DNA of 64,000 nt. It comes from Trichuris trichiura. Its lineage: Eukaryota; Nematoda; Enoplea; Trichinellida; Trichuridae. The first letter of the stretch is position 1, and each line of letters starts with the position of its first letter. The stretch spans positions 2,046,001-2,110,000 of the forward strand of contig JBAJFE010000038.1 of NCBI GenBank assembly GCA_037903355.1, given 5' to 3'. The notes below the pieces were generated by a model. The model was not told where the DNA came from. It made no database searches and saw nothing but the letters and a program-made list of their open reading frames with translations. This document shows, one piece after another, positions 10,501-60,979 of the stretch. The translations under genes were made by a program, and so were the position numbers.

Positions 10501-10892
10501 AGCTGGCTGATCGGTAACGTCTGCGACCACCTTCGACGGTAGTTTCCGGACGATAGTCGCCACTCGGCCAGCCCATTTGGAAGCCCCATTTGGTTCATTT
10601 GTCAGCGACTGGCTGATGATAACTGAATCGTCGTCAAGCCAGCATACCACATATTGGCAACGCGCGAAGGCTCCCGCCGCAAAGATATGAAGCTATTAAT
10701 TATTCAGTGCCGGTGGATGAATTATTCATGCTACAACATGTCGAAAGATATTGCCGAACTATTGATGGAGGGGCACTACCTTTGTCGTCGGATGGCCAAG
10801 TTCATGTTCCGCAGGTGAAAAGGTTACATATAATAAGCTGACATATCGCTGCTGGTCAGCTAAGGCGCACGCCTACTGCTGAATATGATGGG
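1525..10892. other. Long gene-poor interval
   Basis: About 9.4 kb without a gene I can support. A minus-strand stretch at 1710-1848 begins with Met and a strongly hydrophobic segment (MKCIYYIFSYIIIYFVPIY) and could be a stray signal-peptide exon, but I found no partner exon. Frames near 2816-3058, 7018-7269 and 10383-10650 stay open for 70-80 codons without recognisable domains or good splice sites. The sequence becomes GC-rich around 9940-10010 and 10480-10680. I saw no RNA gene. Confidence 0.4.
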
Positions 10893-12462
10893 ATGCAGGC
10901 CGGTAAAGTTCAAACAAATATCCCGCCTTTCTGCTGCGCCAGCACCTTGAATAACCATTCCAGCGACCAAGCGTATCATTGTCTCCATTATAACCTCTAT
11001 TGCCTGCGTGAACTTAGCCAGCCAGACAGGAAGACTGAAGCTGCCTGTTCCCTGGCGCCAAGGCTGCTAATGTGCCTGGCAAGGAATATACGCGCAGCGT
11101 ACATCCTAATGACCATGGAAAAGATTGACGTCCGACGCCAGTCCATTCTAAGGACCAGGAACCCGTGGGGCAAATGGGTAAGCGAACCAGAGCTGCGCAT
11201 CGGGCTTTTCTCCTTTCTACGTATTGGCGAGGAGAACATTCGCATGGTTCTTCTGGCCATACTGCTAGTCATCTACCTGTCGCTTGGAGCAATGCTTTTT
11301 TCGGTTATCGAGCGCGAGCAGGAGGCCATGGAACGTCATACTTATTTGGAAAAGTTGGAACGCTTCAAGAAGCTTCATTGCGGCGGCGTCGGCTTCCTTG
11401 GTCACCCTCTGAACTGTTCCGAGCTAGACGAATTGCTCGACCTGCGAGGCAACATGTCGGCAACCGGTTTGTCCGAGCACAAAAGCAGCTGGGACTTCTT
11501 CGGCTCTTTCTACTTTGTCAGCACCATTGTTACCACTATAGGTAGCGTTCTTTTTTGCTCTTGAGCAATCGCTTTACCTTTACGCTTAAGGCTTTGGTAT
11601 GACAACGCCAAGAACGTCTCTTGGAAAAGGATTGGTCATTGTTTACGGCTTTGTTGGCTGCTCGAGTTCAGTTCTGTTCTTCAATCTTTTCCTTGAGCGG
11701 ATACTCACTTTCCTATCCTATTTGTGCCGGGTTGGCAGGTCGGCATGGCGCCGTAGAAGACGTCTGGGCTCATTCCCTTCGAAGCAAACGAGCGAGTCCG
11801 TCGAGAAAGACGAAGACGACGACACTAGGTCGTACGTTTCCGACTGGAGACCAAATCTCTACTTTTTCTGGGTAGGCTTACTGCTGCTCTCCTGTACGAT
11901 GATCACGCTGGCAGCCTTGTTGTACACGTACGCTGAGGAATGGTCATATCTTGAGGCAGTGTACTTTTGCTTCGTCAGTTTTGCTACAATTGGTTTCGGC
12001 GATTTGATCTCGAGTCAACAGGCCAGTGAGATCAGCACGTACAAAATATATCGAATTTTAAACTTTATCGTTCTCTTCTTTGGCTGCTGTTGTATATACA
12101 GTCTGCTCAACGTTACATCTATTGTCATAAGGACCGTCGTGAATCGTATAATAGCGAGCCTGAACTGTCACTGCCACGCTTTGCAGCATCTCAGACATGC
12201 AGCAGGTCAGCGAGGCAAGGACAGCCTAAGGACGTTGGACTCGATAACCTACGTAAGTGCCAATCAAACCGGCCCCACTTCCGGTGGGGGTGGCTTGCTA
12301 TCGCTCAGAGAATTCTTGGATGCCACTCAGGATGATTTAATGCTGGCGCAAGACCAACTACTATACCCGCAGGAGCAGGATAATCGAAAAACTTCTGTAT
12401 CCGCATCATCCGTCGGCCCAATGGCCATTGTCAACGAAATGCTCGGTGGCGGCGAACCGTAG
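10893..12462 (+). CDS. Two-pore-domain K+ channel, THIK (KCNK12/13) type
   Basis: Background (leak) potassium channel of the plasma membrane. Exons 10893-11541 and 11591-12462 are joined across a 49-nt intron (G/GTAGCG...CTTAAG/GC), giving up to 506 aa. M1 is at about residues 117-138. The extracellular loop carries two N-glycosylation sequons (NCS, NMS). P1 contains TIGFG split by the intron. M2 follows (VYGFVGCSSSVLFFNLFLER). M3 lies around LYFFWVGLLLLS, P2 carries SFATIGFGD, and M4 is FIVLFFGCCCIYSLLN. Both filters and the GCSS-LFFNLFLER and YFCFV-ATIGFGDL stretches match THIK channels best. A charged loop lies between M2 and M3. The true start is uncertain: Met60 (11070) or Met75 (11115) would give an N-terminus nearer THIK length. 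It is one of many TWK-type channels expected in nematodes. Confidence 0.88.
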
Positions 12463-18489: not shown

Positions 18490-18906
18490 CAGTCATTCTC
18501 AACGTGGGGCTTGGGGCCCCCAGGGGGGGGGGGCTGAGAGGCCTTATTGGAACAGGCGTAGTTAGGTAGATCAGAAGAGTGAGAATTTATGCCAATCCTC
18601 TATAGAGGATTGGTTAACCGTTAGCAACATCGCTCTATAGAGGACTCGAATAAATTCACACTCGGCTCGACGAAGTGGTTTCATTATTAGTTTCGAAAAA
18701 CCCCAAGTGCCCTTTTCAAATGATTTTACGACTGTGTATTCGCATTGTATCAGTGCGTTAACTTGAACCTAGGACGTTGCCATTGAAAGCTGATTGGCTG
18801 CTATACAAAAAACGCAAAAATTAATCAGCCAATAGAAAAAGGGGGATCTGGCACCTGAGGACACCCTCCAAGGGGGGTCCAGCGCAGAAAAGGTTGAGAA
18901 TGGCTG
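18490..18906. mobile_element. hAT-family MITE
   Basis: A 417-bp non-coding element. Terminal inverted repeats begin CAGTCATTCTCAAC on the left and CAGCCATTCTCAAC (reverse complement) on the right. It is flanked by a perfect 8-bp target-site duplication, GTCTAATA (18482-18489 and 18907-18914). Both are hallmarks of the hAT superfamily. It contains a G homopolymer near 18525 and no transposase. Confidence 0.85.
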
Positions 18907-18914
18907 GTCTAATA

Positions 18915-20477
18915 TAAAGGCTGTTCAATCAGTCAAAGACATCCCGTCTTCAGAAAAAGGCTGCTCAGTAAGTTAATGAGCTAATGCGTCGCAGCTGTTT
19001 TATTAGTAACTAATCAGAGCACTTCACAGTACACTGAGGTCAGCAAATTCGTTACCACTGCATGCGAAACTACGGTGGCGGTGAGAAATCTTTCGTCGTA
19101 GGTCAAGAGAGCGCTGAGAGAAATGCTCTTCTTAAGTTAACCTTCCAACGGAATTATTGTCCCTTGTCTTCTGCGGATCCATTACTATTTCTTCCTCAGC
19201 TTCATCACTAGCCCCTGCTGAATCTTTGTTTAGCATTCTTGCATCGGGTCATTCGTTGACATGTGCTCGTGGACGTGGGAAACAATGCCTATGTCTGTTA
19301 CGTAGCAGGCATTGTAAGCACATTCTGTTGACCAAATGACGCTTGGTTGACCGTATAGTGGTATCGTGGTTCAACTATTCCTCAAAATAGACTTCAAATG
19401 GACGCAGATCTGAATAGATCCAGGAATTTAGTATTCATTGTTCACTGATAACCGAGATTTGAAGAAGAAGGCAGGTAACAGGTACTTTCGTGGTAGCGTC
19501 AGGCGTAAAGGCTCCGCGGATTTTGCCAATGCTCACTCGACCTTTGGCTAAAGATAAGTTGTTGCAAGAAACTGTTCGACGTACGGAACCTTGGTAAGGC
19601 ACCTTATGTTCACTTTGAACCAGGTCGGTAAAGCGAGAAATGCTCTAATGCAGTGTTTCTCACGGCCGAGCTCGCCCCTGCCCGCCTGTTCGCGCTCTGA
19701 GCTCTCCGCTACTCCCTGCGTATAACCGTTCTACCGGCTCTTGCTGTGACGGAGAGAAAAAGATGGAACGATGAAGAAGGGCATTTTTTGGCGAGCTTCA
19801 TGTCAGCTTGGCATTCTTCGCAGCTTTCACGCCATTTTCAGTTTCATTAGCCACATGTTCATGACAGCGCTGTGCCATGACCGCCGAGTGCATTAATATG
19901 TGTATAGGAATTCCTGCAGGTGTGAAGTGGCGAGGGTAATATGCGTACCAGGAATTAAGGCAGCGGTATCTTCAAATACGCAACACCTTTGTCCCAGTTT
20001 ATTTAAGGATTATGGCATATCAAGCCACCTCAGGTTTTTCATAGGGTAACATGCTCCCATGGCATATGATTTTCAGTGGGAGGACGAGAGAACATTGAGA
20101 CAAAGATGCAGATGCGTCAAGTTCAGTGGAACGCGAGCTGTTCTGATCAGTAAAACCGGGAACAGCCCATTAACCCCTTCGTCTTTATCTTGCTCATAAA
20201 GACAGCTACAGGCAACCAGATGTTACGTGTTTTCAATGAACTTCTGCTGGTGACAGAACCAGAGGCGTTCCGAAAGCTTTGAGGCAACCATCTTCTGTTG
20301 TCACCTAAGCATAAAATTCTTCCCTCAGCCTTCTCAATTTTCAACAACCAACATTCAGGTCGTTAAGCAGTTGTCAGCAATGGGCAATGACTATCTTGGA
20401 TGAACTTGATAGGGTGACGGTTCTGATAGCGATTTGCACTTTTTACTAATATAACTGATTAAACTATGCTGTAAATT
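18915..20477. other. Interval without recognised gene
   Basis: Short open frames only. Probably part of the older transposon cluster around 17.7-21.9 kb, but no domain could be read. Confidence 0.35.
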
Positions 20478-21039
20478 CTTGAAAATGTGGTTTCTTGGTA
20501 CGGGAGCGTATGTTTTCATGATGCAAAAGTTTTAACCTCTGGCCAGGTCTCTGCCGTGGCAGAACATGCCACACAATGTAACCAAACGCTCAACCCAAAA
20601 GTCTTATGTTATGAAAAGAACCTACGATTAAGAAGAATCAAAGAAGCCCTTTACATAAGACACAACTTCACATACAACCGCGACCAAGGAGCAGATGTAA
20701 GTGAAATTTGGACAAATATAGTGACGCGTTACGACTGCTGCTCCATAATTGGACGTGATAGAAGAGCACATGGAGCAAGTGAAAAGAGAAATAATCACCG
20801 CACATGAGAAAAAAATGCGAAAAAACGGACAAATCACATACCATACAAACAGAAAAACCACCAACAGAGAACTTTAAAACATCCGCTTTAAACCATGAAA
20901 ACGACAGAAGACTCAAGTCACGCGCACAAGTTACATCCATAACTCACAACCGCTGAAGACGGGTCTCGGTCGACCCGAAAGCTCCGGAGTTTTTTAACAC
21001 ATTAAACGGGAATAATTCCGTAATAAAACTTTTGCATGG
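20478..21039 (+). mobile_element. Penelope-like element fragment with inverted terminal piece
   Basis: Starts with the PLE terminal segment in reverse orientation (TTTCTTGGTACGGGA). It then carries the end of the GIY-YIG ORF on plus at about 20545-20715 (LNPKVLCYEKNLRLRRIKEA, YNRDQGADVS). A hammerhead-like core follows, and a short arm (TAATAAAACTTTTGCAT) pairs with ATGCAAAAGTTTTAA near the left end. Direct repeats TGTAAATT flank it (20470-20477, 21040-21047). It is 5'-truncated and non-autonomous. Confidence 0.75.
20948..20992 (+). ncRNA. Hammerhead-ribozyme-like core
   Basis: CTGAAGA at 20953-20959, one extra C, GGGTC, a six-base loop, GACCC, GAAA at 20977-20980, then GCTCCGGAG. The self-complementary CTCCGGAG would make stem III very short in a monomer but well paired in a dimer. 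Activity is untested. Confidence 0.6.
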
Positions 21040-21047
21040 TGTAAATT

Positions 21048-25900: not shown

Positions 25901-28900
25901 CGTACTTATCTGTTTATCTATCTATCCATCCATCTTGCTTGACGGGTCAGAGTCTGGTGCCTCCAATAAACTCAGTCTCTCATACATCTCAGAAGTTTCT
26001 TTGATTGGGGCTTAGACTACTTTGCGGCTGTTTCCATAATGGTATCACGGAATTCGACTGGTGAAGCTTATTTTGCGAAGCTGTTTTCCAAATTTCACTA
26101 ATCGAATTTCCATTGCGCGTTTTCACGCGCCCGTTAGAAAGAGCTTTGTTCTCAATGCAATGCGCAGTTATTTGCTGAATATTTAATGTATACTCGCACA
26201 TCAGTGGATCATCGATAAGGAAACATCCGATACCACTAGCTTGTCACTGTTCAGCAACATGGAATTGCTCTTGTCTGACGGCTACGCTCCCTTGACTACA
26301 GAGGACAGCAGTCGTTGTAATAAAACATCTGGGCAAATCTATAATAACAAAACAGATAAGATTATTTCTAATGATTAGTTCGATTCGCGTATACGAAAAC
26401 GGTAAGAACCGCTTTCACTTCTTATGCAAGTAGCACACTGTGCAATATTAAAATTTACGGGCGGCCTAGACAAAAATCGCGGATACAGACGTCTTAGTGC
26501 ATCCATGTTGCAATGAATGTTACTGGCATTGCCCAGGCAATGAGTAAAACGATTAGGGACCCTATGTAATTCTGAAAATCTTTAAGCATTGAACTGTGCC
26601 TTACGGAATGTATGTCCCGTTGAATGTACAGTAAACTTTAATTTCCGGAGCTTCTGGGCTGACGGTGAACCGTCGGCCCGCGGTCTTAAAATTAATGTAA
26701 TTTGCGAGTGCGTTTCAATCGTTTTTAACGGTTTATAACGAGTGTTTTAAAGTCTTCTGCTGAAGGTTTCTTCTCTGTCTGTCAGCTGTCTGCTTCTCTT
26801 GTTCCGCATATCTTGTAACATTTTTGCGTGTTGATTTATTTTGAAATTTTCTTCCATTGTTCACGTTTCTCATCCATTTTTCCATTTGTATTCCATTTTT
26901 GTCAATTCGTTTCTTGTTTGTTCCATGTACAGTGTAATTTTATTCATTTCCTATTTGTTCCATATTTTTTAAAGACTTGTTTCTTCACTTGCTCCAAGCG
27001 CTCTTGTATGTCATCCATTTAGTGTGCAGCATGTGTAGCTCGTAACAATATTTGTTCATAGTTTACTTATATCCGCTCTCTGATCGCGGTTGTAAGTCAC
27101 ATTGTGTTTAATATAAAGGGATTCTTTAAGTCTTCGTAAGCGTAGACTACTTTCATAGCATAAGACTTTCGGTTGCAGAGGCTTATTGCAGTGAGCCGCA
27201 TCTTCCACTACAGCGGACGCTTGTATCGCTTTTTCCATGGTAACTCTTGGATTCAACATTGGTCTTCCACGATGTGCTATTGGAGTGCCATTTTTGTAGA
27301 GATTGTTTTTTGCGTTGTTGTAACTGGTAAGCATCTTTATATGTTCGTTGAATCTGTGTTGTAGTGTATTGCTTGTTTCTCCAATGTAAACTCCTGAACA
27401 AGTGCATTCGATGGCGTAGACTACCACTGTCTGTTTGGTAGTCGGCATTTTCGTTTTGTCAGTACGAAGAATTGATCTGAGGTTGGGGAAACTGTTGAGA
27501 AAGACGCTGAAACCTAATTTTCTTCCCAACTGGACAATCTTTTCGCTTCGTCTTATCACATAGGGAATAACTAAACATAGATTGTGCGGTGTATTTAATT
27601 CAGGAAAGACACGTTTGCAAAGCTTGTACTCGAACACTTGGTCAGTAAAAGATTTTGAGTAATCGTTTTGTAGAAGATCTTTCTAATGTAGTTAAGTTCT
27701 GACTGAATATATTCAGGGCTGCACAAATTACTTGCTCTGTCAATTATTCCAGAGAAAATTCCACGCATTATCGAACGTGGATGGTGTGAGGAAAATTTGA
27801 GACATTGGTGTGTGCTTGTTGGTTTTCTATGAACTCTGGTTTCAAGCCCTTCGTTTGTGCGGACAATTAAGGCGTCTGGAAAAGGAAAGATTTTATTTTC
27901 TTCTTTTTCCATCGTGAAGACAGTTTGGTTTGGACGGATGGTGTTAAGGAAGTGTAGAAATTGTTCTTCTTTTCCAACTTTAATAATTACGAAGATGTCA
28001 TCTACATGCCTTTTGTAAAGTCGTAATATGATAGTGGAGTTGGACAGTGTCAAAGGTATGTAAATGACGTCTTCCTAATTGTTAAAGTTGGAAGAAAAGA
28101 ACAATTTCTACACTTCCTTAACAACATCCGTCCAAACCAAACTGTCTTCACGATGGAAAAAGAAGAAAATAAAACCTTTCCCTTTCTAGACGCCTTAATT
28201 GTTCGCACAAACGAAGGGCTTAAAACCAGAGTTTATGGAAAACCAACACGCACAGACCAATATCTCAAATTTTCCTTACACCATCCACGTTCGATAATGC
28301 TTGGAATCCTCTCTGGAATGACTGATGGAGCAATTAATTTGTGCAACCCTGAATATCTTCAGTCAGAACTTAAGTACATTAGATAGATCTTCTACAAAAC
28401 GCCTACTCAAAATCTTTTACTGACTAAGTGTTCAAGTACAAGCTTTGCAAACGTGTATCTCCTGAATCAAATACACCGCACAATCCATGTTTAGTTATTC
28501 CCTGTGTGGTAAGACTAAGCGAAAAGATTGTCTAGTTAGGAAGAAAATTAGGTTTCAGCGTCTTTCTCAACAGTTTCCCCAACCTCAGATCGATTCTTCG
28601 TACTGACAAAACGAAAATGCCGACTACCAAACAGACAGTGGTAGTCTACGCCATCGAATGCACTGGTTCAAGAGTTTACATTGGAGAAACGGGCAATACT
28701 CTACAACACAGATTCAACGAATATATAAAGAAGCCTACCAGTTAGAACAACGCAAAAAACAGTCTCTACAATAATGGCACTCCAATAGCGCATCGTGGAA
28801 GACCAATATTGAATCCAAGAGTTACCATGGAAAAAGCGATACAAGCGTCCGCTGTAGTGGAAGATGCGGCTCACTGCAATAAGCTTCTGCAACCGAAAGT

Positions 28901-31900
28901 CTTATGCTATGAAAGTAATCTACGCTTACGAAGACTTAAAGAATCCCTTTACATTAGACACAATGTGACTTACAACCGCGATCAGAGAGCGGATATAAGT
29001 TAACTATGAACAAATATTGTTACGAGCTACACATGCTGTACACTAAATGGATGACATACAAGAGCGTTCGGAGCAAGTAAAGAAACAAGTCTTTAAAAAA
29101 TATGGAACAAATAGGAAATGAATAAAATTACACAGTACATGGAACAAACAAGAAACGAACTGACAAAAATGGAACACAAATAGAAAAATGGATAAGAAAC
29201 GTGAACAATGGAAGAAAATTTCAAAATAAATCAACACACAAAAATGCTGCAAGATATACGGAACAAGAGAAGCAGACAGCTGACAGACAGAGAAGAAACC
29301 TCCAGCAGAAGACTTTAAAACACTCGTTTTAAACCTTTAAAAACGATTGAAGATTGACTTCGCACTCGCTAATTACTTTCATTTTAAGGCCGCTTAAGAC
29401 GGGTCACCGTTGGCCCGAAAGCTCCGGAGGTTAAAGTTTACTGTACATTTAACGGGACATACATTACGTAAAAGACTCAGTTCACTATGAAAACTTACAG
29501 TCCCGTACCAAGAAACCATGTCTTTAAAATCTTTAAGCAACATACAAATACTTAATGCTAACTACGCTTCCTAAGCACAAACTGAGGAACTATTAAGTCG
29601 TGTTTTTTCGCCTGTGCTTTTGCAATCCCGCGGCGGTGACGCCTGCAGGACAAAGTTAGCTGTTTTCTCACTACTTTGCAAGCTATATTTTCCCCATGCC
29701 TTGGCTCAGACGTAGGCTGGTGCTAGACAAGATAGCCGACAAGAATAAGAGAGAAATCAGGCCTTTTGGTCGTGGAACCTTGCTGGCTATAGCTTTCTGC
29801 TCTAGCCTAAGCCCTAGCCAAAACATAAGGAGAGCGCAGGCACAACGTAGCGAGAAAGTAGCACATTGCACCGCGGGTGTTACCACTGTAGGTTTGGAGG
29901 GGCGTGGGTGTAAACACTATTAAAGTCTGTCTCTCTTGCCAAGTTGCTATTCATCCTTTGCATGAATCTTATATTTCCTTCTATACGGGGCCACGCAAAA
30001 TATGTGGCAAACTGAAATACAGACATTTCATAGCTTGTCTAAAAACGCATGCATTCTCTAAGACCGCCACATTGCCTGTAACGTACAACAAAATGTTCCG
30101 TTTTCTCGCTTCTGCGCTGCTATTTGTTATTTATATTTTCTCTCAGGCTTACGCTATGCTAGGCCAGAATACGATAGCAGCAACGTTCTGCCACCAATGT
30201 GCCTAATTTTTTTTCGCGTACTTGTCGGTTATCGTGTTTCACCTTAGCCTAAGCCTAGGCCAAGACATGAGGAAGGTGTAGCCGGAAAAGTAGCGAAAAA
30301 CAACCCACTTGGTCCCGTACACGTCTCTGCCGGACGCATGCAGTGGCGAAATCAAAGAGCGTCGATTTAATGTTTTGGTGATTTGTCATTAGGTATTGTA
30401 AAGAATGCTTAGAAAATGACATTTGTTAATTGAAATGAAATGAAATAAAGTTTGGGCATTTTTAAAATTGCATAGATATTCAACAGAGTGCCCAATATTC
30501 TACATTGCTTGTAACACTCGTTTGAAACATGCGTGTCTTCGATCATACTGGGGTTCTCTATCATAGTACGCTCATGCTCATGACAAGTTCTGTGATTTTA
30601 AGCGTTCGTCGTACAGGCATACCTCGTTTTATAGTGGGATTGGTGCTGGAGCAGCGCGATAAAACGAGTAATCGCAATAAAACAGGGCTATTGTTTGTTT
30701 TCCCAGTGCATTAGAAGTTGTTTTCATTAACATCCTATGATCAGTAACGGCCTGTTTAGTCTGCATTGACATCACATCAAAGAAGTTTGCTGACAACACT
30801 TTAAACATTTTTGTTGCTGAGATATGCTAATGATCAGCCATGCGTTCAGTGACTCGTAATATTTTTGCTAGTAGAGCTTCCTGCTTAGACGTTGATGGTT
30901 GCTCAATGTTTCAGGCTGTGATTACTGAAGGATTTTGTGACTGATGCGATTCAGTTAAATTAGGCAACAGTGAAGCTTGCTGCACTGACTGACTTCTGTT
31001 TTCATGAAAGATTTCTCTGTAGCACGCGGTGCTGTTTGACAGAACGTTTCCCACAGCGGAACTTCTTTCGAATTAGGTGTCGATCTTCTCCGACCCTTCC
31101 GCCGCTTTATCAATCAGATTTACATAATACTGTAAGCCCTTTGTTGTCATTTCAGCAGTGTTTACTGCGTTTTCTTTAGTCGCAGATTCCATCTTATAAA
31201 ATGATCTTCTCTGTTTGTCAGTAAGAAGCAAGCTAGTCCTCGTCTGTAAAAGCTATATCATTGGATTGGAGCAGCTCATTCACATCCTCGTGTTTCAGTT
31301 GCAATTCCAGTTGTCCACCTATTTGTACCATGTCTGCAGTCACTTCCTCTACCGACCCTTCTGATCTCTCAGATTCATCTATAAGCGTGGGGATTAACTT
31401 CTTCCAAACACCTTTTAATGTTGGCATTTTAACTTCCTCTGACGAATCACGAATGTTATTAACGGCGTCCAAAATTGGTGAATCCTTTCCAGAAGGTTTT
31501 CAGTTTACTTTGTCCGGAGCCACCTGTGGAATCCCTAACTATTGCCAGTATGGCCTTACGGAATGTATTTCTTACATAGAAAGACTTAAAAGTCGAGAAT
31601 ATTCCCTGATCCATCGATTTTGTGTGCGCTGGTGAGTAAAGAACAGTAATTTGGCTGCACGTATCCACCAGAACTTTTAGGTAACAAGGTGCACTGTCTA
31701 CGATCAGTTATATTTCGAAAGGAATTTTTTTCTGTACGGTAATTCTAAGCAGCAGGTTTAAAATAATCAGTAGAAAAAATTTAAAAAAGGATATCCGGTC
31801 ACCCAGGGAGTCTGGCTCCATTTGTAAGGCACAGGAATGATAGATGTTGCATAATTCCTAAATGCTCAAAAGATTTCCGAATAGTAAATGAGCATTGGCT

Positions 31901-34900
31901 TCAACTTAAAGTCGCTAGCCGTATTGGCTCCTAACGAAAGACTCCGCCCGTCTTTCGAAGCTTTAAAGCCACGCACTGGTGTTTCCTTTCTGACTATGAA
32001 AGTCCTATTAGGCATCTTCCCAAACAGTGCTGCTTCGTCTACATTGAAAATCTGCTGTTCAGTTTTGCCAGTTTCGTTGATTATCTTAGCCAGATTTTCT
32101 GTAAACCTTGCTGCAGCTTCTGTATTAGCATTTGCTGTTTCATCTAGCAGTTTTGTATTGTGCAGATGGGTTCTTTTTTTAAACCTTATGAACCAACCTC
32201 TGCTGAGTTCAAATCGTTATTCTGCATTTTCGTCACCTATTTCAGCCTTCATGGAACTGAAGAGATGTAGGGCATTGCTGTGAGTTATACTTTGACGCAA
32301 AGGAACGTTGTGTCTAGTTTGATCTTCTAGCCATACTAGCAGGGCCTTTTCCATATCAGCCATAAGGCTATTTCGTATTCTTATTGTACGTGTGTTCATC
32401 GGAATAGCACTTTTAGTTTCACCCAAAAATCTCTCTTTTGATTTGACCACTTGACTAACTATTTGGCGCATGAAGTACTGACCTTCAGCCTACCTCGGCG
32501 TTCGATATGCCCTTCTCGCTAAGCTTGATCATTTCCAACTATTGATTTAAGGTGAGGCATGTGCGATAACTTGTTTCGCTTGAAGGCCTAGGGGCCATTA
32601 TGGTCGCTATAATTGAAATGTCTTCAATTCCTACATAAAGTGAATCATTCTCGTTGACGGAAAACGGCAACTGTAATGAAAGAAGACGTGACTAACCAAG
32701 AAACTTGTCGATGGGCAGCTATCAGTAAAATTCGAGAATACTAATTATGTCTGCCTTAATGACTGATACTCTTGGAAAACAACTATTTTGCCTTCGTCAA
32801 ACTGTTGACCTCTAGGGCACAACGGTATAAAGTATAAACAGAAATAGATAGATGCTGCGTTTCTCCGAATGAACGACCCATATTATGACGGTTGCACAGC
32901 GATAGCGCTTCATCCATTGCCTCTTATCGTACAAAAGCAGCCAGAAGAAACTGCACTGCACGATGAAGCCGAAGACCTGTCGCTGATAAATTAGGCTTTT
33001 CTCACATTAGAGAGCCTACGTTACCCAGCACTGCCAAAAGTGGGAGTGGAGGCTCGGATCACGCATCTACAGCTGGTTTTCGGCTGCGCAGTGAAACGAG
33101 GTGTATCTGTATTTATTTTGATAGGTTAAACGAGTATATGGTAGCAAAGATGAGAGCGTTTCTGTATGATGACTGTTTACCATTCACTAAATGGAAGTGA
33201 ATCGTCGTGATTGTTTTCCTGTTCAGTAGGCTGAGAAAGTGAGAATAGTGTATCTTTGCCGCCTCAGTAGTGGGAAAACCTAAGTAAATGGAAAGAGAAG
33301 TGGGCGCACTCGGAGCAACTTCTGAGGAATGCTGGCCGATTTGCTTTTTTATTTCTCTGAAAATGCTTCCGTATATATCACCAACCCATATAAAACAATA
33401 TGGATCCGCGCTGCATGTTTACTTTTGTCCACATTTCTGTCTTCCGTGGACGCGGTGCTTTGCATAGCCATAATGAATTTGTGTGCTCATACCTTTAAGA
33501 ATAATATTTTTAAGGTATTGATAGCTTCTATGCGATCTTTCAGTATTGAATGATAAAACATTAAAAACTAACGTGTACACATACTTTATGCTTTTATGAC
33601 AAGTTTAAGTTGCGTTCGACCAACCCACTCAGTTTTACGCGCGTGTATGTTTTTGTTGTTCAACCCCGCGTTGAGCAAGGCGTTGCTGAAGTCAGCGAAG
33701 ATGTAGCACACCGGTTTATTACTTGAATGCAACGTATATCTGCATAAGTTTACTTTTACATTCCCCTTGTGCGTTTCTCGACTGCCAAATAAGCAATTGC
33801 GAAACGTTTTACTGGTCTCTGTGAGTAGTTTGCTCGATATTGAACCCATTAGCAATAACTGTTCATTGGCTACTTTCTTCAGGATCAAATGCCCGATTTG
33901 GGTATGCACTTTCGAAACGTTGGTATAGATACAACAATGTACGCTTCATCCTGGTTTTTGACTATGTTTTCTTCGACCCTGCCTTTGGACATTGCCTTTC
34001 GCACGATGGACGTGTTCTTATCCGAAGTAAGCGCTAGGCAATTGTTAGCCGTGCTAACGCTATTAAGGCGAAACGTTCCTTGTAGGGAATGGAAATAGTG
34101 TTCCGAATCGCCTTAGCCATACTGCAGCTTTGTCGGGTTGATCTGTTTTCCTTAGACATGGAAGGAATACTCAGGGTGAGACTTCTTCTCGTCTACCTCC
34201 CTTGTGCTCATGTGCTATCGTTTCAGTACCTTCAACACGACTTGGCCGAACAATTTGACCAAGATCATGAACGATTGTTTTCCGTTGCTTTTGAGGTGCG
34301 TTACAACAAGAAAAAAATGCAAAAGTAAGCTATCCTTAGTGTTTTCAACGCGTTTGTCAAATTTTGTAAATTGAAAACGTGGTTTCTTGGTACGGGACAA
34401 TATGTTTTCATAATAGAGAAATTTATTACGGATATGTCCTGTTTGTTTTGTATATAAAAAGACTCCGGAGCTTTCGGGTCATTCGAGACCCGTCATCAGC
34501 GGTCTTTTTATATACAAAACAAACGGGACATATCCGTAATAAATTTCTTCATTATGAAATTCTGTAAATTTGCTTTTTATTTTTGTTAATCCATTTGGAT
34601 CTTCTCTTAAGGTTCGAAAAGGACTACATAGTCAAGCGAAGCAAGGACCAAGAAGAAGCAGCTGAACTTCGAGTAAGTCATTGTTTTCTTTCATCAGATG
34701 GCCTGCGAGACTGCAATGCTAAGTAATTATCCCATGCAGTCGTCTGATTTTGTCCAACGTACCGATGGCTCGCTGTTGATTATATTAGAAAGGGCAGCGT
34801 ATTCGTCAGCTAGCAGCGTAGTTTTCTGTTAAGCTCTCATTTTTTAAAATTTGGTGACTTCATCTATATTCTCGCTACATAGGTAAGCTATTAACTTTTC

Positions 34901-37723: not shown

Positions 37724-37972
37724 TTGAAGGTATAACTTTTTAGTATGGGCCCCTAGGTTTTCATGTTTGAACTGTTTTTTCGTACGGAGTATGTTCGGTT
37801 GAAAAATGCAACGAATTTTTAATGGAAGGCTGTAGCTTTTTGGCCGCGCGTGACCCACTCCTCAGCGGTATTAACATTAATTTTAATACCGCTGAGAACC
37901 AGTCAAGCTACGGAACTTCATTAAAAATTTCGTACTTCAAACGAGACATACTCCGTGCCAAAAAAGAATTCA
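37724..37972 (-). mobile_element. PLE-derived inverted-repeat insertion (older)
   Basis: 249 bp flanked by the 13-bp duplication AATTTCAGTTCTT (37711-37723, 37973-37985). Arms pair around a centre at about 37875 (ACCGCTGAG against CTCAGCGGT; TAATACCGCTGAG is the inner part of the right arm). The left end retains a degraded PLE tail (TTAGTATGGGCCCC, TTTTCAT). A ribozyme-like core is only vestigial. Confidence 0.7.
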
Positions 37973-39295
37973 AATTTCAGTTCTTATCAGTTTAATAGAG
38001 CTCAGGTTCATTGCATGAATCCAGAAACGACAACAGCCGCGTTGGTTTAGTCCTGAGCGAAAACGCAATTGCTCATGTGAATCATTTTTTCTGATCATTA
38101 GTTAACTAATATGTTTCGACGGATATGCTACTTTCAACTGTAATTGCCGGGCTAGAGAAACCTCAAAAGTTCTGAAGACTTTTCGCTTATCAGAGGTGCA
38201 AAACGTAACAGTCAGGTTTTGAATATGAAAACCTATTCGCCCGTTAGACGATATCTCATATTTCGTCAAAACGCACCTCTTTCATTGCATAAGATGGCAG
38301 TAAGCAGCGAAAAATGCCAGTTTAAATGAACTGATTGTGGAAAAGGCTAACTGCCGACAATAAATACTGTTACTGCACTTTCGTGAGTTATGACATGTGC
38401 GTTGGTTCAGGAGAATACTTGCCCGAAGAACGAAGGCTTCGATAAACTGAACTGTTTACTGATGTAAGCGAGCAGCGTCGAACTTTACCTTTTGATAGTG
38501 CCGCACTTCCGGGGGAAGGGGGATCGGTGAAATATGCAGCGAGTATACAATAAAAGAAAGAGTCATTTTGGAAAAAACAATGTCTCCTTATATATATAAG
38601 GCATGATGTTCCCATTAGCGGAGTCCCTGACTTCGCTTTGGCTTGACCTTATTATCGGTTCGTATTTGAGGGACCACATGCCACGGTCGGTCTCACCCTA
38701 GATGCTGATCATTGCACCCACTAAGACGTGACCGCAATTGGATCACACTCGTGTGACTATTCAGGTCGGTCTTCATGCTGAGCATTTTCGCTTTGTGCTC
38801 CGCGAAAATTTCATCCTCCCGCTGGCACTGCTTAATGATCAATGGCTTCAACGATGGAATATACAGCAGCTAAAGTGCAAGGTTAAATAAAGCACAGCTG
38901 AGTTCAGATACGATTTTTTAGAGTTAGGTTACGCGAACTAGGTGAGCAGATTTATTGCAACATACAGGAAATTACAAAAGATTAATTTTTGAAAAGCTTG
39001 AAGATTCGCCAAACTTTCGTAGGTTGAAGGAAAAACTCCAATGCAGCTAAAAATAGATTATTCTTTCATTGGCAGACCGAGTTGAACAGCCTCCCTGCAG
39101 AAAAAGTATCCGCGTAGACACCAACTTAAAAGCGCCTGGAAAAAATGACTCATATGAGCTATTACTGTTTTCGGATCTTTTCGCAACTGTTCCTCCCAGA
39201 AATGCGGGCGACGGTATCAACGGGAAATGCGCGACGAAGTGGAACGATGAGCACAATGGAGCATCAGTGGCACATACAGGAGCTTATTGACCCAT

Positions 39296-44400: not shown

Positions 44401-47400
44401 TTTTTTGAAAAAGACAATTTTGTGCGTCAGCTTCTATTGACAATTTTTGCGTTGTTCAAATCGGCCGAAGAAGAATAGGTGCAACAGTAATGCGGTGGCA
44501 CCTTTTCCACCAATTTTAGTTATTATTAGTCGAATCAACATTGACGTATTACAGGTCGTACGAGGGTACTCTCTAGCTGTCTGCGTGTAATCTTTACGCT
44601 TAGCGGCGAATAAGTACGCTCGAATTGTTTCATTTTCAAGTAGTCATGTGCAGCATGCGAGCATGGCCATTTGCCTTGCTTGCTACATGTTAGTCTGCCC
44701 ACTCGTTGATGCATAAATTTGCTAATGCACAAAGGAGCCTTACTGACGAGCGTTGTTTTCTCTTGGCGCGTGCTGGTAGTCTGGCAGCCTTGTTTATTGA
44801 CTTATTTAGTCTTCCGAGCTATTGAATGTCAGGTTAGACGTACACTTTTCAAAACTATCCCAGTTTTTCGAAAAAGAGCAATTAAACATCCCTTGCCGGT
44901 TGTTCTTATGCAATCTATAAGTGCCTGCCATTTTTAAGCTCTTTCAAATGACTGTTTGATTTGCTTGGCGTTTTTCTTCTTAACCAACGAGTCAAGGGTG
45001 AAAGTTTGCCAACGTTATGAGACGAGTAGCTGTCGTCATTAACTACACTTCTTCACTCTTTTCCTTTTAAAACTTCATACCGTCTATTGAACGATGGCAC
45101 GTTGCGTAGTCGATTTGTCGGCTTAAGCTGACGTGAGTAGGCTATCTTCGTGGAATAGATGCGCTGCGTCAACGAGCAGTTGCGCGCAGAACGTTCGTAA
45201 CTTTTTATTTGGAAAAGATGGCTTTCGATCTTCTTCCCTCCGCTTTTGCTGGGAGCTTTTTGAAACAGTTAGAACGCCATTAGCCTTACGTGGTAAATGT
45301 CGTTTCGATCGTTCCTGCTGCTCAAAGATTTAAAATTTTCCAGCTTTGTTGCTACTTAAAGTAAGAACGTGCGCACCTGCCTGACGCGCTGCTGCTACTA
45401 CTATTACTACTTTGCCTAACAGGACGTCATAGGCGTTTCCAAGTTCAAACTGTAAAGCTGTTTAACTTGCCACTACCTTCCGTTGACGGTTTGGGCGAAA
45501 AAATGATCCTCCAACGCGTAGAGGTTATCATTAACGCAGTGCAAAGGCAACCATGAAGCCTGTACGAAGTGCCTGAGCGTCATTATGCAAATTACCGTCT
45601 GCTTCCATTTTGAGACTGGTTATTTCAGCAGCTCAAGCGACACGGGCCACCAATGCTTTCATAGCATCACAAAAGCAATTCGCGGACAGTTCAAGCAGTA
45701 TGCCAGATGTTGCAGCTTCAATGTCTTTGGAAATGGACGACACAGCGTCTACGCCGTTGGCTGCTAAAGCAACCGGCGTTAATGACGTTTCCGCCAGCGA
45801 AGGCCATTCGTTGGCATCCCTTTCATCTCCGATGATCAGCCCCGCATCGGTGTTACCTGCCAAGGTTCGTTTTTCGATGCTGTTACCATTACTTTTCGCG
45901 TAATAAAGTCCGTATTCTCAGACTCAGAAGGGCGTTAAACGCAAAGCGGACACAACGACTCCGTTCGAAGACCAGCCGGCCAAGGTGTTAACTCGCAGAG
46001 AAAGTAGTCGACCAATCAAAAAACCGGCTCGAGACGTTTTCTTCATCGAAAATCAGGTTGGCCTTTCGTGCTATGTAGTCGTCCTTGTTCATCTCCGACA
46101 CTATAATCTTCAATCCAAATGGTGCACTTTTGCCCGTTTCAACAACACCTTAACTGTTCGTTGGCCCAATGCTCTCGCACCCTATCCAACAAGATCCGGT
46201 TGGGTGCCACGATTCAACTTGCAGCAACATTTTCGACTTGTTTCCAAAACTTTTCACTTTTAACGCGGCTCGAGTTTACGCACCAAGCGATTTGCACAAG
46301 CGAAATAATTTTCGGAATTCATCTTCGATTTCTTGTAATGAGCGCGTAGCCGTAACTAAACTGGGATGGATTTCCGTTGGTCACCCTTCAATGAGTTGAG
46401 AGCAAAGCAGGCAGAAAGCTCGACCGACCATTCAACGCCCCCCCCCTCTCCCGCGCAATGTAAGGAGGCAAAAAGATAAATTCGACGGAATCTGCTTCTG
46501 CCGTAGGTCGCTGCTGCGAGCGACTAAAAAATTTTGTCAAAGCAACTTTTCGCCAAAGCATTCGCAAGCCGTAGATGATTGTAGAATATACTCAGTTTGG
46601 TCAAAATACGCGTAGCGGAAAAATATATTACCTGTGTCTATTTTGCAGAACCAAGCGGTCAAGCAGAAATACAAAGGAAAGCTGAACGAGCAGATGAAAT
46701 TTTGTCATAGTATTATAAAGGAGCTATTGTCGAAACGTCACGCGGTACGTGCGTAGTCGCCAACGTTGCGTAATGATTGAACTTCATCAAAATGTGCGTT
46801 AGGATTACGCGTGGCCTTTCTACAAGCCCGTTGACGTCGAAGGGCTCGGCTTGCACGACTACTACGACGTGGTGGAAGTTCCAATGGATCTTGGCACAGT
46901 GAAGGTAAAAAAAAAAAAGAAATGAACAATGTTGAAATGACTTGATCGATTCATACGTTCTGTTCTTGACAACAGAGGAAGCTCGATAATCGTGAATACG
47001 GCGACCCATCGGAATTTGCAGCCGACGTTCGGTTGGTGTTCACCAATTGCTACAAGTACAACCCGCCGGATCACGAAGTTGTAGAGATGGGTAGGAAGCT
47101 TTCGGTAAGCATCAGAGAGAGAGAGGGGTCAAAAAGTCTTATAAGCCGATCGCAAAACTACGTTGACTCTTTTAAGGACGTGTTTGAAGCGAAATTTGCT
47201 CAATTGCCTGATGACTTTGGCTCCAATACTATAAGTCCTTCGGCCTTCAGCGAAGGTCCCGGATCGATGTTTTTAAGCTCCAGGTCTCGCGGTCAGCTGA
47301 AAAGCGAAGCATCAATTCCGGAAGAGGAAATGGACGAGGACGCGGTCGACCGCCGTCTTGAAGAGTTGCAAGTTCAGGTTGAATTTTCGCCGCGGCGTAT

Positions 47401-50400
47401 CCCATTGTTGATTGCTTCCATTGGGCCGTTACATTTTTTTGCAGCTTTCCGACATATCGAACGAAATCTCCCGTCTCATCACTTTGAAGAATCGCTTGAA
47501 GGAATCGAGATTCTCTCGCAACGCGGCGCATGCCGCGGCAGCTTCGTCACTTCCGGCGCCCGCCAAAAAGCGTGCTCCGGCCAGGCATAAGGCGGAGGCA
47601 AAGGTGTCGCCATCAGCTCCCCAAGCTTCCAGTCAAAATCAGCATGCGACAACGTCGTCAAGCAATGTCGCTTCGGTGTCGAATGCTCAGTCTACGCCGA
47701 CGGCAGCAGCTACAGTGGCGCCGGGTGCGACCACTACCGAAAAAGGCAATAGTATAGCTTTCGCCTTGTTGTGTTTTGAATTTAAACTTTTTTCAGCAGC
47801 CGCGCAGCAACCGCGCAAGAGAGCAAGTATATCAGCCAGGTGAGCTAGTTAACTGTACTTTTCCTCCCAAACACGCGTAAACTAAATTATAATGCCTAAT
47901 TCTTCTTTTTCAATTATTCCTACTTTTCCATAGCAGCGTGACAACACCTAATGTGTTGATACATCGAGATGTGTTCAAGGTCAAGGAAACGTAAAAGAAT
48001 GTACACTTAAAAAGGCATAACCTTTGCATGGTAACCTTTGGTGCATCTACTAAAGTTAGCCTTTCGGGCACTTAGGGTACAATAAACGCTCGCGCGAGCA
48101 TCTCGCTCATACAACGATTCATTCTGTTATAATTATTATAATCGCGCACGAGTCCGTGCACCCGTAGGACTTGTCGTTAGGTGCATTTACCGTATAGACG
48201 CCGATTTTCTTTGCCCAGTGGTGACGTATCGCGATCCCGTAATGACTGCTAGTCGCGGCTGACGGACTAAATTGACTTTTCATTGCGCATTGGTAAACTG
48301 CGCCTTATATGGCCAATTTTGAGCAATCAAGAGGGTTTTCAAAGTTTGGTAATTCGACACGTCAGCGAACCAATTTTTACTGACAACCTGTTTCCTTCGT
48401 TTCGAAATGGTCACCGGCGTTGAAGTAATAGCAGCGCGACGATTTCAAACTTTACCTTAGTCTCGAATGTCCCCCAAAGTTGTCGAACGCTCCGTAGATG
48501 GGATGAGTCGTAAACTAAGAAACTGAAGGAGAGCAGCTGACCACGAGTTACAGTGAAATGGAGATGTTCCAAAATTAATGCGCGCTCAAAGCGTGACAGA
48601 CCTAAAACTGCGTTCATTAAATTTTACAATTGTAAAACAGGCTATTTCCGCGTACGTAATGACGAGAAGACTGCTGCATGCGGTTTAAAAAAAAAGATGA
48701 AATTTTCATAAAACGTTTGAACAGGTCGAAGATGAAAAAGGGAGGCTACTATTTCGACAGCGAGGATGAGGACAACGCGAAGCCTACAACGTACGACGAG
48801 AAGCGCCAACTATCTCTTGATATTAACAAGTTGCCAGGTGAGCTATTTATAATTTGACATTTTAAAAACCATCCGGTTGTAACATTTTTCAGGTGACAAG
48901 CTTGGTCGAGTCGTTCAAATAATTCAAGCTCGCGAACCGTCTTTAAAAGTGTCCAATCCCGATGAAATCGAGATCGACTTTGAAACTTTGAAGCCAGCGA
49001 CGCTGCGAGAATTGGAAGCTTACGTTGCCTCCTGTTTGAAAAAGAAGGCTCGCAAACCGTACAGTAAGTGTGCGCGCTGTTGTTCGGGTGAAAAGTGTGA
49101 CTGTCGAGCGTATTGCAGCTGCCAAAACTCCAAAAGACTTGGAGCAACGAAAGAAGGAGTTGGAAAAGCAAATTCAGGACCTGGGCGGGCAAGTGGTGCC
49201 TACGAAGAAGCTTCCCAAAAAAGGTAACTGTCCATTAATTTGGCTGGAGTTGGAAAAAACACTTATATACGCACGTATGCATACTTGCCTTTTTTCTGCA
49301 GAAGTGCCAAGTTATGAGCAAAGTAAAAGTAGGCGCCAAGGACCGGAGAACGCTGATGCAGCTGCCGTTTCAAGTAGTTCGACCAGCAGTGGAAGCTCCA
49401 GCTCGAGCGAGTCCAGTTCTAGCGATTCAAGCGATTCAGAATCAGGTTAGCTAGCCCGCGCACGCTGTTCTTGAAAAAAACTATATCGGGCGAACAGTGG
49501 CGCCAAAGCTTATCGCTGAACCCAGGACGCTATTTTTGTTTCCCTGTCCATTGTAACTATCCCAATACTACCAGTACAGTGTTATGTTAAAGACGGCCTT
49601 TTACGCAGTCTGTTTTCTTACATTTCAATTCGTACAATTTATCCGCGTAGCATAGACGTCGTCGGTTGCAACAGAAAGTGCAACGCCTAATTGTGCGTGT
49701 CGCGGGGTGCGTGCGGTGTTTGTCCTAAACGGTCCTTAGTGTTACTACTACACCTTTTGGCTGCTACTGTCTGCGACAGTGGGTGAACATCTCACCTCTA
49801 TCGTAATTCTAAGGACTGCACGCTGTACAGAAAAAGAGATATATATATATACACACACATATACATATATGTAGTATGTAAAAAAATGTCGTTTACTCAC
49901 TTTGCTGCCTGCTCCCGTTGTTGTTTATTACTTCACGCTGCAATGTTTATCCATAGTAAAAGCCGAGCCGCTGTTTACCTTTTTTTTGTTTCACGCTTTC
50001 CCCCTTCATTATTGTCATTGCCTTGCAGGAGTTGTTTGTTCACGCCCAGGCATACTTGAATTTAATTAAAAAATTTTAAAAAGTTGCATACACTATAGAG
50101 TGTACGCGTTGTGATTGTTCAGCTGATCGCTGTTTAGGCACGCCAGCCGGAAAGAGCCAGCCACTTTGCAGACCGGCGGGTGGTGCTCAGGCTAAGGTGT
50201 CGACTAGGGTCAGTCCGAGATGTTCTTCTCGTGGCGGTATTTTAATCAAAGTTGTTTCATTGTTACAGGCCGAACAAGACGCCCACTCCCTTAGTCCCCT
50301 CGCGTCGAACATGAGCAGTTCAAAAATGCTGCCCATCTCCACCCCCGCATCGGCAGCAGTAGCCGCTACGCCAGTGGACGTGATGGGCAGTGAACATCCG

Positions 50401-51517: not shown

Positions 51518-51788
51518 AGCCAAGGATGGCTGATCATTTTCTTTCAATCGTCTGCCGCGCGTCGCATTAGCACATACAGGAGAAACTGTTGCATTATACG
51601 CAAATCGAGTCAAAATCGACAAAGCGTATGCACACACACTGAGACAAGCGTTAATGTTGGTTTTCACCTTATGCTATTTTGCTGACAATACTTCTAGCGT
51701 GTTTAGGATTAAAGGTAACTTATTTTTCATTATTTTACTCATTACAATTACTTGAAAACTGGGTGTTTTGTAACGAGCTGTATTTTCA

Positions 51789-51976
51789 TGGTTGTAAGGT
51801 CTTCTACGGCTTTTCCCGTTTTTCGTTGTGCTGTTATCTGTAATTAAACTAAAACAACTGCTCTACTAACGGATGGATGAGGCTCATCCATCCGTTGGTA
51901 GAGCAGTTGTTTTAGTTTAATTACAGATAACAGCACAACGAAAAACGGGAAAAGCCGTAGAAGACTTTACAACCAC
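51789..51976. repeat. 188-bp near-perfect palindrome
   Basis: Two arms of about 90 bp meet at GGATGAGGCTCATCC (about 51880-51894). Outer ends are TGGTTGTAAGGTCTTCTACG and its complement, with very few mismatches. It lies 270 bp after the BET stop, probably inside the 3' UTR, where the RNA would fold into one long hairpin. It shares no sequence with the PLE elements and contains no ORF; likely a young foldback or MITE-type insertion. A target duplication is not obvious. Confidence 0.75.
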
Positions 51977-54184
51977 ATTGCAATTACTGCAATTGGACGA
52001 AAAAGCGCAAGCGTTACGTTCAACTTTCCAAACCGTAACTCGAAAAAGCGAAGCCGCAGACAAACAGTGTGATTGACTGCTGTTAGTTGCAGTGTCTTTA
52101 TGCTACGTGATTTGCAAGTTTTGAAGCAGCATATTTTTTGAGCAATTCACGCTGCAAAGTTTTGTAAGGCATAAAAAGAAAAGTAAACGCGCCAGCAGCG
52201 ACTGCATTTTGCCTTTGATGAACCGTTAGGTTGATTCAAAACGATTTCAGGGGACGCGGCAGACAAGCTAACCAAACAATCGCACGGGAATTCATGCTGT
52301 AAACTGTACCTGAGGGCAACTAGACGGACAAAACTAAAACGCAGCGATATGCATGACGGATTTTCAGGCATTTTTTAAAGGTGAACGCAAAAGCAAAATA
52401 ACGTGCAACAGATCGAGACAAATTTAACAAAACAAATTGGATGTTTCAAGTCGAGGCGTCAAGCAGGAGTTATTCGAGCGAGAAAAGACTTTTATCACGG
52501 AATTCAAAACGCGCAATAAGTATTTAGAAATCTTAGCAACACTTACCCGCCCACGGACATCCTCTTTTCCAGCTGCTGCACCCAATGTTGGGCTAAGCGT
52601 CGACAACGGAACGAAAATGCTTGATTGCGGCAACTACGCATTCGCACAGTTGCTTTAGGTAGAAGTTTGGAAATGAACAGTTGAAATGAGCATATCAGAA
52701 GCGCTAACCTGTGAACATAGAGTGCAACGCGAGCTGCCATACTTTCTCTGCTGCAGCCGATCGGATTACTGTGCTTACCTGCGAACGGTTTAGTAGTTGC
52801 TGTGCAAAACAAGTTCAACATAAACAATAATACTTGGCGCTACGGCAACCAGCAGACATAATTTAAACGTTTTAACTAGAGTTTGTTTTCTTTTCCAATT
52901 TTCCATTTTGGAATAGTGATTGGAAATAGCGGAGTTAATGCGTAAATTTTAAATTTAGACGAGATAGCAGCAATCCGATGGATGCAACACTTTTATGTCC
53001 GTCCATTATTGTTTTAATGGGAAAAGTTAACCACATTTTTCTGTCCAAAAAGTCATGCCAAATAAATGGCCTTTGTAGGTATTATTGCTGCCGCTGCTAC
53101 AACATGCTGATTTACTAGCTGAGTCGCGTTTACTATTTTTAAGGCGGTGATTTTTTTAAAATTCATTTGCAACGGCTGTATGGAAAAACGAAATGTTGCC
53201 AGCAGGGCTTTATACGTGCCTAGTCGTTTACCAGCGGCTGATCCGTCTGCTGTTCCATGTTTTAAAAACGTATGCGTGTTTATTCAATCAACGACTATTC
53301 GCTTTTGCGGATTCAATTGAATTAAGCCGTCCGCTTCCTCTCATACGCGCAAGTTAAACACGGAAGCTTCGATATTTGCTTTGCTGCCCATGGATTTCAT
53401 TTTTGAACGTGGTATAAACTTGAGCATCACAGTTTGCACTGTTGTTTTGCTTTTTGCGTTGTTATAGTTGGCTCGCTAGTATTGTGTAGTGTAAGATGGA
53501 TGGCGTTTTTCCATTTTGGTTTATTAGTCTTTGGTCGTTAGCTCTGCTCAGCTAAGGCATAGGCATTACGTTGCCGAGTAGTCGAGTTTTCCCTCGCTTG
53601 TCACGTTTGATCGATGGCAATTTTGTTGGCAGGCACCAGCGCGCTGTCAGTTTAACGGAATGCCATCTTAGAGAGCATTTGCTAGCGCGATATGTAATCT
53701 TTTTTTTTTCCAACTATATTGGACTTCGCTTATGCACTCTATTAGCACCACTTTCTTTTGGTTCTTTTATGGCCGTTTGATCGATAAATTGCAGTGCAGA
53801 ACTTTTGCAACCGATTGCCATTTGTCACTTGGGAAACTTAGGTGATCGAATGTAATAAGCCCCTTGAAATCCAACCCTACCTTTCCGTTCGCATTGGTAA
53901 CTTGCGGTAATCTTATTTGGGCACAGGTTTAAAGGCGATGCCGGCATTCTTGGATTGCCACGTTTGGCGACAAGTGCCGTCGGTGTTGCTAGCGCACTGA
54001 GACGTGTTACCAAGCAATAGTTTCAACGAAAAGCTGGAATGAATGTTTTTCAATCGCGTCATTTCCAGTTCAAGTCAATTCTGGTCCTTTCGAGTGAGAG
54101 TCGATCAATTCCAAAGTGAATCCATTTGACCAGCGCTTTTTGAACCACCATTCCGTGCTCTTCAAAGAGGACACGGTTGACATA

Positions 54185-55621: not shown

Positions 55622-56478
55622 TTATTCTTGCAGGTATTTTTTCGTCTCTGGGATAAAACACTGGTGGAACCATTCCGTGAATAACAATGCCGTAACCCAC
55701 GCATTACGATTGTGTAGCCACAATACGGATAGACGCTTTTGGTTTTTGTTCTTGACGGCGTGAGGGGTTCTCGCTCGATAAACCAGTGCAGGCTTTGTCA
55801 TATGTTCGTCCATGTTGCAACATAATACCAGTGCGACTCTATTTTTGAAAGTTCTAAAGCCTGCTGCTCGCTTTGCACTTTTATGGACATAGGTTCTGTT
55901 GGGCATTCTTTTCCAAAATAGCGCTGTCTCGTCGCAGTTAAAAACTTGTTTCGGATGGTGAGACCCATCGGAATTGGTCGTCTTTAACTCATCCGAAAAG
56001 TTGGCAGCTACGGAATAATCCGCTGATGCGGATTCGCCCGTAATTTTTACGCTTTTTGATTTGAGACGATTTTTGATCACATACAACCACCCTCTGCCTG
56101 CTGTAAACGGTCTTGCTTCTTTTTGTGTGCCTTCTTTGTCTTATTTTTTACGCACATGTTCAAATAAGCTCAATGGTTTTCGCCTCAACGATTGTCCATT
56201 AACAGATATACTTTTCTTATTCATATCTTCGACCTAAAAATTTAACGCCTTTTGCATTTTTACTAATATCTTGTCACGCGATATAGAAGTTACTTTTGTT
56301 GTTTGCGGCGCAGAATTGAAACTATCGCGAATTTTATCTTTGTTCCATACAATCTCCCATATATCATAGCCATCACCGCATATGATTTGCCCTTTTTCTC
56401 TACCAAGTCGAGAATTTTCACTTTTTCACTTATAGAAAGTGTCACAGCTTCCGTTAAGCTTTTCGTCAGTAGCAGCAC
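55622..56478 (-). pseudogene. Tigger transposase, broken
   Basis: N-terminal helix-turn-helix and part of the DDE catalytic core, including the first catalytic Asp in NCDETALFW, in two separated frames. The C-terminal part is missing or unreadable. No intact protein. Confidence 0.72.
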
Positions 56479-60849: not shown

Positions 60850-60940
60850 GAAAATGTGATGTTTTAGTACGGGACAGTATGTTTTCATATTTTAATGTCT
60901 TTATTACGGTAGCAGTGTCCCGTGAAAATGAAAAAACTAT

Positions 60941-60979
60941 CTCCGGAGCTTTCGGGTCTTTCGCGACCCGTCTTCAGCG
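60941..60979 (-). ncRNA. Hammerhead-ribozyme-like core (left arm)
   Basis: On minus: CTGAAGA, C, GGGTC, loop, GACCC, GAAA, GCTCCGGAG, then ATAG. AUA is a possible cleavage triplet after stem III. Confidence 0.6.

Follow-up and report, generated by a model that had tools for sequence, protein, structure and literature searches.

Penelope of Drosophila virilis, as Evgen'ev reportedly described in 1997, has variable terminal repeats, direct or inverted, and an optional tail. In Penelope-like elements (PLEs) generally, target site duplications (TSDs) measure about 9–15 bp. The portion consulted of Arkhipova et al. (2013; PMC3846280) describes an insert of Adineta vaga with inverted pseudo-long terminal repeats (pLTRs), a single 9-bp TSD and a 31-bp tail on one pLTR; there, head-to-head copies are given as the most frequent inverted form, and self-priming on an antisense template is proposed. 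Inverted pLTRs and short 3′ extensions are likewise mentioned in the available section of a curation guide for PLEs. For PAc, a Poseidon PLE of Anolis carolinensis, the available text of Frangieh et al. (2024; PMC11167929) reports cutting and extension of both strands in vitro, with cDNA begun at two internal sites, one on either side of the tail. The locus described here lies in the nematode Trichuris trichiura, in a 64,000-nucleotide stretch (the window; GenBank assembly GCA_037903355.1, contig JBAJFE010000038.1, positions 2,046,001 to 2,110,000 of the forward strand). At window positions 26589–29525, two 5′-truncated Penelope-like (GIY-YIG) copies stand head to head within a single TSD. Judged by sequence comparison, and with a probability of roughly 0.8, this focal dimer arose when a GIY-YIG PLE carried out a single round of target-primed reverse transcription from both sides of the cut.

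The 2937 bases of the focal insertion are enclosed by an exact 14-bp direct repeat, AAAATCTTTAAGCA (26575–26588 and 29526–29539, + strand). Self-comparison returned the interior (26590–29484) as a single inverted repeat (91.7 % over 2913 columns), within which 26714–28013 and 28052–29351 are 94 % complementary. Repeat and self-comparison together confirm the original prediction of two divergent 5′-truncated PLE copies, head to head in one exact TSD of this length. The left, tail-less (N) arm (26589–28023, − strand; upstream limit set by alignment to locus L013 and others) ends at the putative start site S2. The right, tailed (T) arm (28052–29484, + strand) is followed by a 41-nt tail (29485–29525, + strand), which is unpaired, is present at the right end only and aligns with the tails of other family copies. 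Between the two 5′ ends lies a filler of about 28 nt (28024–28051) without family homology by eye; a genome-wide search for a second source at ≤3 mismatches returned a single match, the filler itself. The arm ends differ, the right arm starting at 28052, the palindrome reaching 28013 and the family homology of the left arm continuing to about 28023; on the family alignment, some 15 positions at most separate them.

In the left copy, a GIY-YIG endonuclease domain (PF01541, E 1.6e-5) occupies 27305–27424 (− strand; residues 87–126 of the frame 27059–27682), downstream in sense of a YVDD-like motif recognised by eye. The element shows two marks of GIY-YIG-containing PLEs, GIY-YIG downstream of a putative reverse transcriptase (RT), and terminal repeats, possibly inverted, with a 30–40 nt tail at one end. 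Relatives of the endonuclease-side frame at E up to 0.001 were three proteins, all labelled Trichuris suis (best 60 %), in keeping with a whipworm or a close relative as host. The reading frame of the left copy is broken into two overlapping open frames, the frame 27598–28074 gave no Pfam match (RT is present as its 3′ part only), and in the right copy no open frame reaches 150 aa. With its frames broken and the hammerhead-like motif of the terminal repeat (29390–29429, + strand) decayed, with CTTAAGA at its core, the focal element is an old, broken copy. Both copies had been thought to be cut at the RT active site; the focal truncations do lie near the RT motif, but the two arms stop at different bases and the dimers follow no such rule. 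A truncation near this motif was also seen in one arm of one relative, L011/L012 (300 kb from the focal insertion), whose tail-less arm is cut at about the same place and whose tailed arm is cut about 90 bases further in; other dimers are cut elsewhere.

Five insertions could be delimited in the window (20478–21035, 26589–29525, 34373–34556, 51753–51975 and 60850–61118), and each has paired arms, one tail and one TSD (two exact, three with one mismatch). TSDs included, the four siblings of the focal dimer span 20466–21047 (TSD 11/12 bases), 34359–34570 (13/14), 51740–51988 (12/13; a divergent subfamily) and 60837–61131 (exact, 13 bp). The tail is on the left in all four; in the first, the tailed arm consists of the tail and some 14 nt, and a long tail-less arm lies on the right. 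The asymmetric plan noticed for these five insertions is thus present in 5/5 and extends to 65 of 66 insertions scored in the genome.

The genome searched comprised 72.7 Mb, and the plan recurs widely in it. With one arm plus tail as query, at least 56 places were matched; 40 of 1298 candidates were scored and 30 loci were used. A hammerhead-like pattern matched 349 places, with many minus/plus pairs among the first 100 of them, and the reversed pattern matched none; 40 places from this list were added to the 30 loci. The loci L039–L078 contain 34 minus/plus pairs with their motifs 16 to 882 bases apart. Left unscored were loci with the second end outside the DNA examined (e.g. L016, L022, L024, L025 and L028), the single-motif loci L052 and L054, where a second end was not found, and the close pairs at C1 5159422, C5 105405, C11 1791403 and C32 106088.

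Exactly one end was tailed in 65 of the 66 inverted insertions scored. The 65 distinct cases comprise the 34 pairs of L039–L078 (34/34; 32 by script, L045 and L076 by reading), 12 from a coordinate-only survey, the five in the window (5/5) and 14 further insertions (14/14). L045 belongs to another family and has 45 extra bases at one end. The coordinate survey covered 38 pairs of one subfamily, 25 of which overlap the 34; by rule, 36 had one tail, none had two and two had none. The last two (L044 and L080) carry a tail with a 2-base deletion, giving 38/38 after reading. Pattern counts for the subfamily over the whole genome were 311 tips and 157 tails, a ratio of about half and, the patterns differing in breadth, in rough agreement with one tailed end in two. 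By eye, tail/tail pairs within 3 kb were absent among the 100 tail places listed out of 157. Two candidate tail/tail pairs were rejected: in L035 the inner tail runs into the element interior and the insertion ends tail-less further on, and C7 2955563/2956225 is the 5′ part of a longer insertion that ends without a tail. Two dimers have further peculiarities. In L076 (at L076:81–158) an extra partial tandem lies at the tail-less end, as if the enzyme had jumped from within the hammerhead-like motif to a second tail, and at C6:647780–647863 just 21 bases separate the two tip matches, so that no other of the 38 survey dimers is as short.

A single TSD of at least 10 bp was found in 46 of 53 one-tailed insertions read as sequence (mode 14). 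By script, 31 of the 34 pairs of L039–L078 had a TSD of at least 10 bases; L066 and L077 gave 8 and 9. The dimer at L063:65–520 lies in an AAT microsatellite, with some 80 or more repeat bases on each side, and has no clean TSD. For the 14 further insertions the script returned TSDs in eight (L029, L030, L032, L033, L011/L012, L014/L015, L035 and L037), that of L035 being an exact 14 bp and that of L033 (21 bases, one mismatch) possibly including tail letters. L034 has 12 exact bases, L040 12/13 by reading, L036 9 and L019/L081 7; none was clear at L013/L079 and L020. The 40 tabulated TSDs measured 10–21 bp (25/40 at 13–14), and their end bases mirror each other (first base A in 22/40, last base T in 27/40). 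Short TSDs in AT-rich DNA, a further mark of PLEs, are thus found at the focal site (14 bp) and at the 40 sites tabulated. Of the two features proposed for testing in a family comparison, the single duplication was borne out by the 46 of 53, and a common truncation point was not.

To look for empty sites, the flanks of 40 dimers were joined and matched against the DNA examined. Paralogous empty sites, with continuous flanks and one target copy, were found for L029, L045, L049 and L056, and on this sequence evidence they fit the uptake of a dimer as one unit. Together with the one TSD and the one-sided tail of the focal dimer, they agree with the single insertion event originally proposed. Two independent nested insertions, or a fold-back artefact of sequencing or assembly, could be suspected from the palindrome at C1 6865861–6868336, which extends into its flanks, and from one insertion that occurs twice in the assembly (C1 3563121 and C39 1421700); single TSDs with unlike flanks, the tail at one end and the empty sites with one target copy speak against both, and we consider them hardly credible. 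The first of these places (L017/L018; C1:6865861–6868336) is a 96 % palindrome of PLE arms with flanks that are also mutually inverted, and belongs to a separate class of event, either an inverted duplication or an assembly fold-back. At the second, L044 (C1:3563121) and L080 (C39:1421700, at a contig end) share insertion and target but differ at one base or more; they probably represent a single locus that the assembly contains twice, redundantly or as two haplotypes.

All 34 centres of L039–L078 were distinct, also when compared as 40-mers with reverse complements counted equal, and contained 0 to 380 unpaired bases. Because the centres all differ, the dimers appear to have been assembled afresh at the target and not copied as a unit. 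The suggestion that the palindromic dimer is itself the integrated, mobile form is not supported by this comparison. Transposition of a ready-made dimer, for example via a hairpin transcript of an existing one, would explain why there is one TSD per dimer, but its daughters would share a centre, and it is very improbable.

The proposed mechanism would begin with a staggered endonuclease cut of about 14 bp; we infer 3′ overhangs from the TSD length and the orientation of the arms. Both target 3′ ends would then prime cDNA on element RNA, a start at S1 giving the tailed arm; the tail-less arm would come from a start at S2, which lies about 40 nt upstream of S1. Both cDNAs would extend toward the RNA 5′ end and stop, the two cDNA ends would be joined, with filler or overlap, to form the head-to-head dimer, and fill-in of the overhangs would produce the single TSD. 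Arm length gave no rule for the order of the two primings; either arm can be the longer one.

The arms of one dimer resemble each other closely. On average they differ at 1.08 positions, against 5.61 between dimers (26 dimers, mainly of one subfamily), a similarity reached by none of 20,000 permutations; 18 of the 26 dimers have identical arms, and those of L063 differ at 16 positions, partly by deletion. For 42 of the 52 arms no relative was nearer than the mate, and L043, L051 and L062 carry variants that are present in both of their own arms and in no other dimer compared. Long arms, running past the motif by about 435, 246, 150 and 122 bases, were found in L051, L075, L041 and L064, where the centre leaves 11, 14, 12 and 7 bases unpaired; in the focal element 38 are unpaired in about 2690. 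The two arms of such a dimer can differ in length by that number at most, which indicates that both end at nearly one position. Since S1 and S2 are used once each, the arms share variants and their 5′ ends are often near-equal, both cDNAs probably go back to a single source transcript, and perhaps to the same RNA molecule. That one RNA is used twice in each paired insertion (S1 on one strand, S2 on the other), the short dimers arising from starts in the 5′ leader with both cDNAs running to the RNA 5′ end, is a tentative proposal with slightly less than even chances.

Two-sided priming might instead use two separate RNAs, one for each half of a protein dimer, and the lizard PLE protein is indeed predicted to be dimeric in the available part of PMC11167929. 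A random choice of start sites would then leave about half of the insertions tail/tail or none/none, yet the coordinate survey contained 0/38 after two had been read, and unrelated templates would not share variants or near-equal 5′ ends. We regard two RNAs as unlikely; two RNAs from one locus, combined with an enforced asymmetry, would be a possible variant. In a fold-back, one cDNA (or an antisense-templated strand) would act as primer for its own complement, making one arm a copy of the other. Shared variants and the short unpaired centres of several long arms would follow directly, and the self-priming hypothesis published for Adineta vaga rests on palindromes at inverted junctions (PMC3846280, in the portion consulted). 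The copy should, however, carry the tail as well, whereas 65 of 66 insertions have their second end at S2. Moreover, the tail-less arm is the longer one in eight (L032, L035, L040, L055, L063, L070, L081/L019 and window 20478–21035), so neither arm is a simple copy of the other. Fold-back is refuted as a general rule and improbable for the focal dimer, and could still hold for some equal-armed dimers.

Several observations weigh against one two-sided event with one tail per insertion, for which the evidence is comparative throughout. Seven of the 53 insertions lack a clean 10-bp TSD (L013/L079, L019/L081, L020, L036, L063, L066 and L077), and an empty site for the focal insertion, sought in the genome, was not found. 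L017/L018, with no tail, no TSD and inverted flanks, is the sole rule-breaker among the 66. L046, L047 and L078 are seemingly single-armed, so either priming need not be two-sided or one of the cDNAs may be lost. For ten of the 52 arms another relative lies closer than the mate, the arms are very unequal in L029, L030, L032, L034, L035, L040, L065 and window 20478–21035, and gene conversion between palindromic arms could account for part of the arm identity. As to the single-armed loci themselves, a TSD is present at L046 (no tail) and at L047 (tail), and about 15 bases at the 5′ junction of L047 resemble the target.

In 16 of the 34 pairs of L039–L078 the palindrome arms end 18–25 bases upstream of GACGGG; two of these short dimers leave 24–26 central bases unaccounted for. 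Such arm ends would be expected if the transcripts shared a 5′ end just upstream of the hammerhead-like motif and reverse transcription began in the 5′ leader. The hammerhead core is CTGANGA. An Rfam scan of the window at the gathering threshold gave no hammerhead match; by E-value the focal element matched microRNA models only, and L042 matched microRNA, snoRNA and one sRNA model, again without a hammerhead. These matches are best explained as an effect of the palindromes. RNA folds of the tip were no better than those of shuffled sequences (z −0.54, −0.24 and −0.23); L042 formed stems I and II as expected, yet with z −0.54. For a stem ACGGGAC/GUCCCGU enclosing S2, 91.6 % of cells were paired (29 copies), a value reached by 0/500 shuffles, and only 2/7 pairs change on both sides, which 89/500 shuffles reach; these counts lend the putative stem weak support. 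Hammerhead cleavage as the origin of the arm end was rejected, the right arm of 34373–34556 starting some bases downstream of the presumed site.

Outside the PLE insertions, the window contains a repeat of about 520 bases in two copies with 75 % identity (25936–26452 and 56728–57274) and two further imperfect palindromes (18577–18663, 81 %; 37766–37974, 67 %). Ion-channel domain matches (PF07885) were obtained for two open frames at 10842–12459, that of the first falling just short of the cut-off; the frames are, by these matches, probably exons of a potassium channel gene. A DDE_1 transposase fragment (PF03184) was found at 55625–56140 (− strand) and part of a bromodomain (PF00439) at 46970–47587 (+ strand).

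In LINE-1 twin priming, the second target end primes inside the RNA and an inversion with one TSD results. There, a single copy has its 5′ piece inverted, whereas here two 3′-complete copies stand head to head; both arms share the 3′ part, whereas a twin-priming inversion adjoins the 3′ segment without repeating it. The odd terminal-repeat and inverted arrangements of PLEs had been invoked for this locus from the start, and the plan is indeed already published: the literature on other PLEs records inverted copies with a single TSD, tails, a pair of start sites and extension on both strands. This genome adds the near-strict one-tail rule and the argument for one RNA. No statement of either was found in the parts seen of the literature searched, which excluded Craig et al. 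2021 and Evgen'ev et al. 1997, and we place little weight on priority. The hundreds of element ends form a statistical record of the poorly understood insertion of PLEs, covering start sites, stagger, joining and template use, and the one-tail rule, if general, would reduce the puzzle of tails and inverted terminal repeats to one testable prediction.

As here, Pen2a_Av and other Penelope elements of Adineta vaga combine inverted terminal repeats, a single TSD and a one-sided tail, according to the portion consulted of PMC3846280. In that account an inverted pLTR lies beside a pLTR-ORF-pLTR unit (ORF, open reading frame), a plan also found here in two cases, and the tail is called optional, whereas many dimers here consist of two arms only, short or long, and the single tail is nearly strict. 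The two cases, L035:76–2916 and L081/L019 (C7:2955560–2959220), are near-full-length, with an inverted tailed arm, a tailed terminal repeat leading into the interior and a tail-less end; this is the classic inverted-pLTR plan of PLEs, and it would fit the proposed scheme if one cDNA were made on a longer (tandem) RNA. PAc, in the available text of PMC11167929, has GIY-YIG and RT, a hammerhead motif, AT-rich targets and two start sites bounding the tail; the present family has GIY-YIG and AT-rich targets as well, with a putative RT, a hammerhead-like motif and two putative start sites on either side of its tail. It differs in that no integrated dimer was followed, the start sites are seemingly alike on both strands and that text states no rule of one of each. 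By analogy, the structures described here are what the PAc reaction would leave if each start site were used once per insertion.

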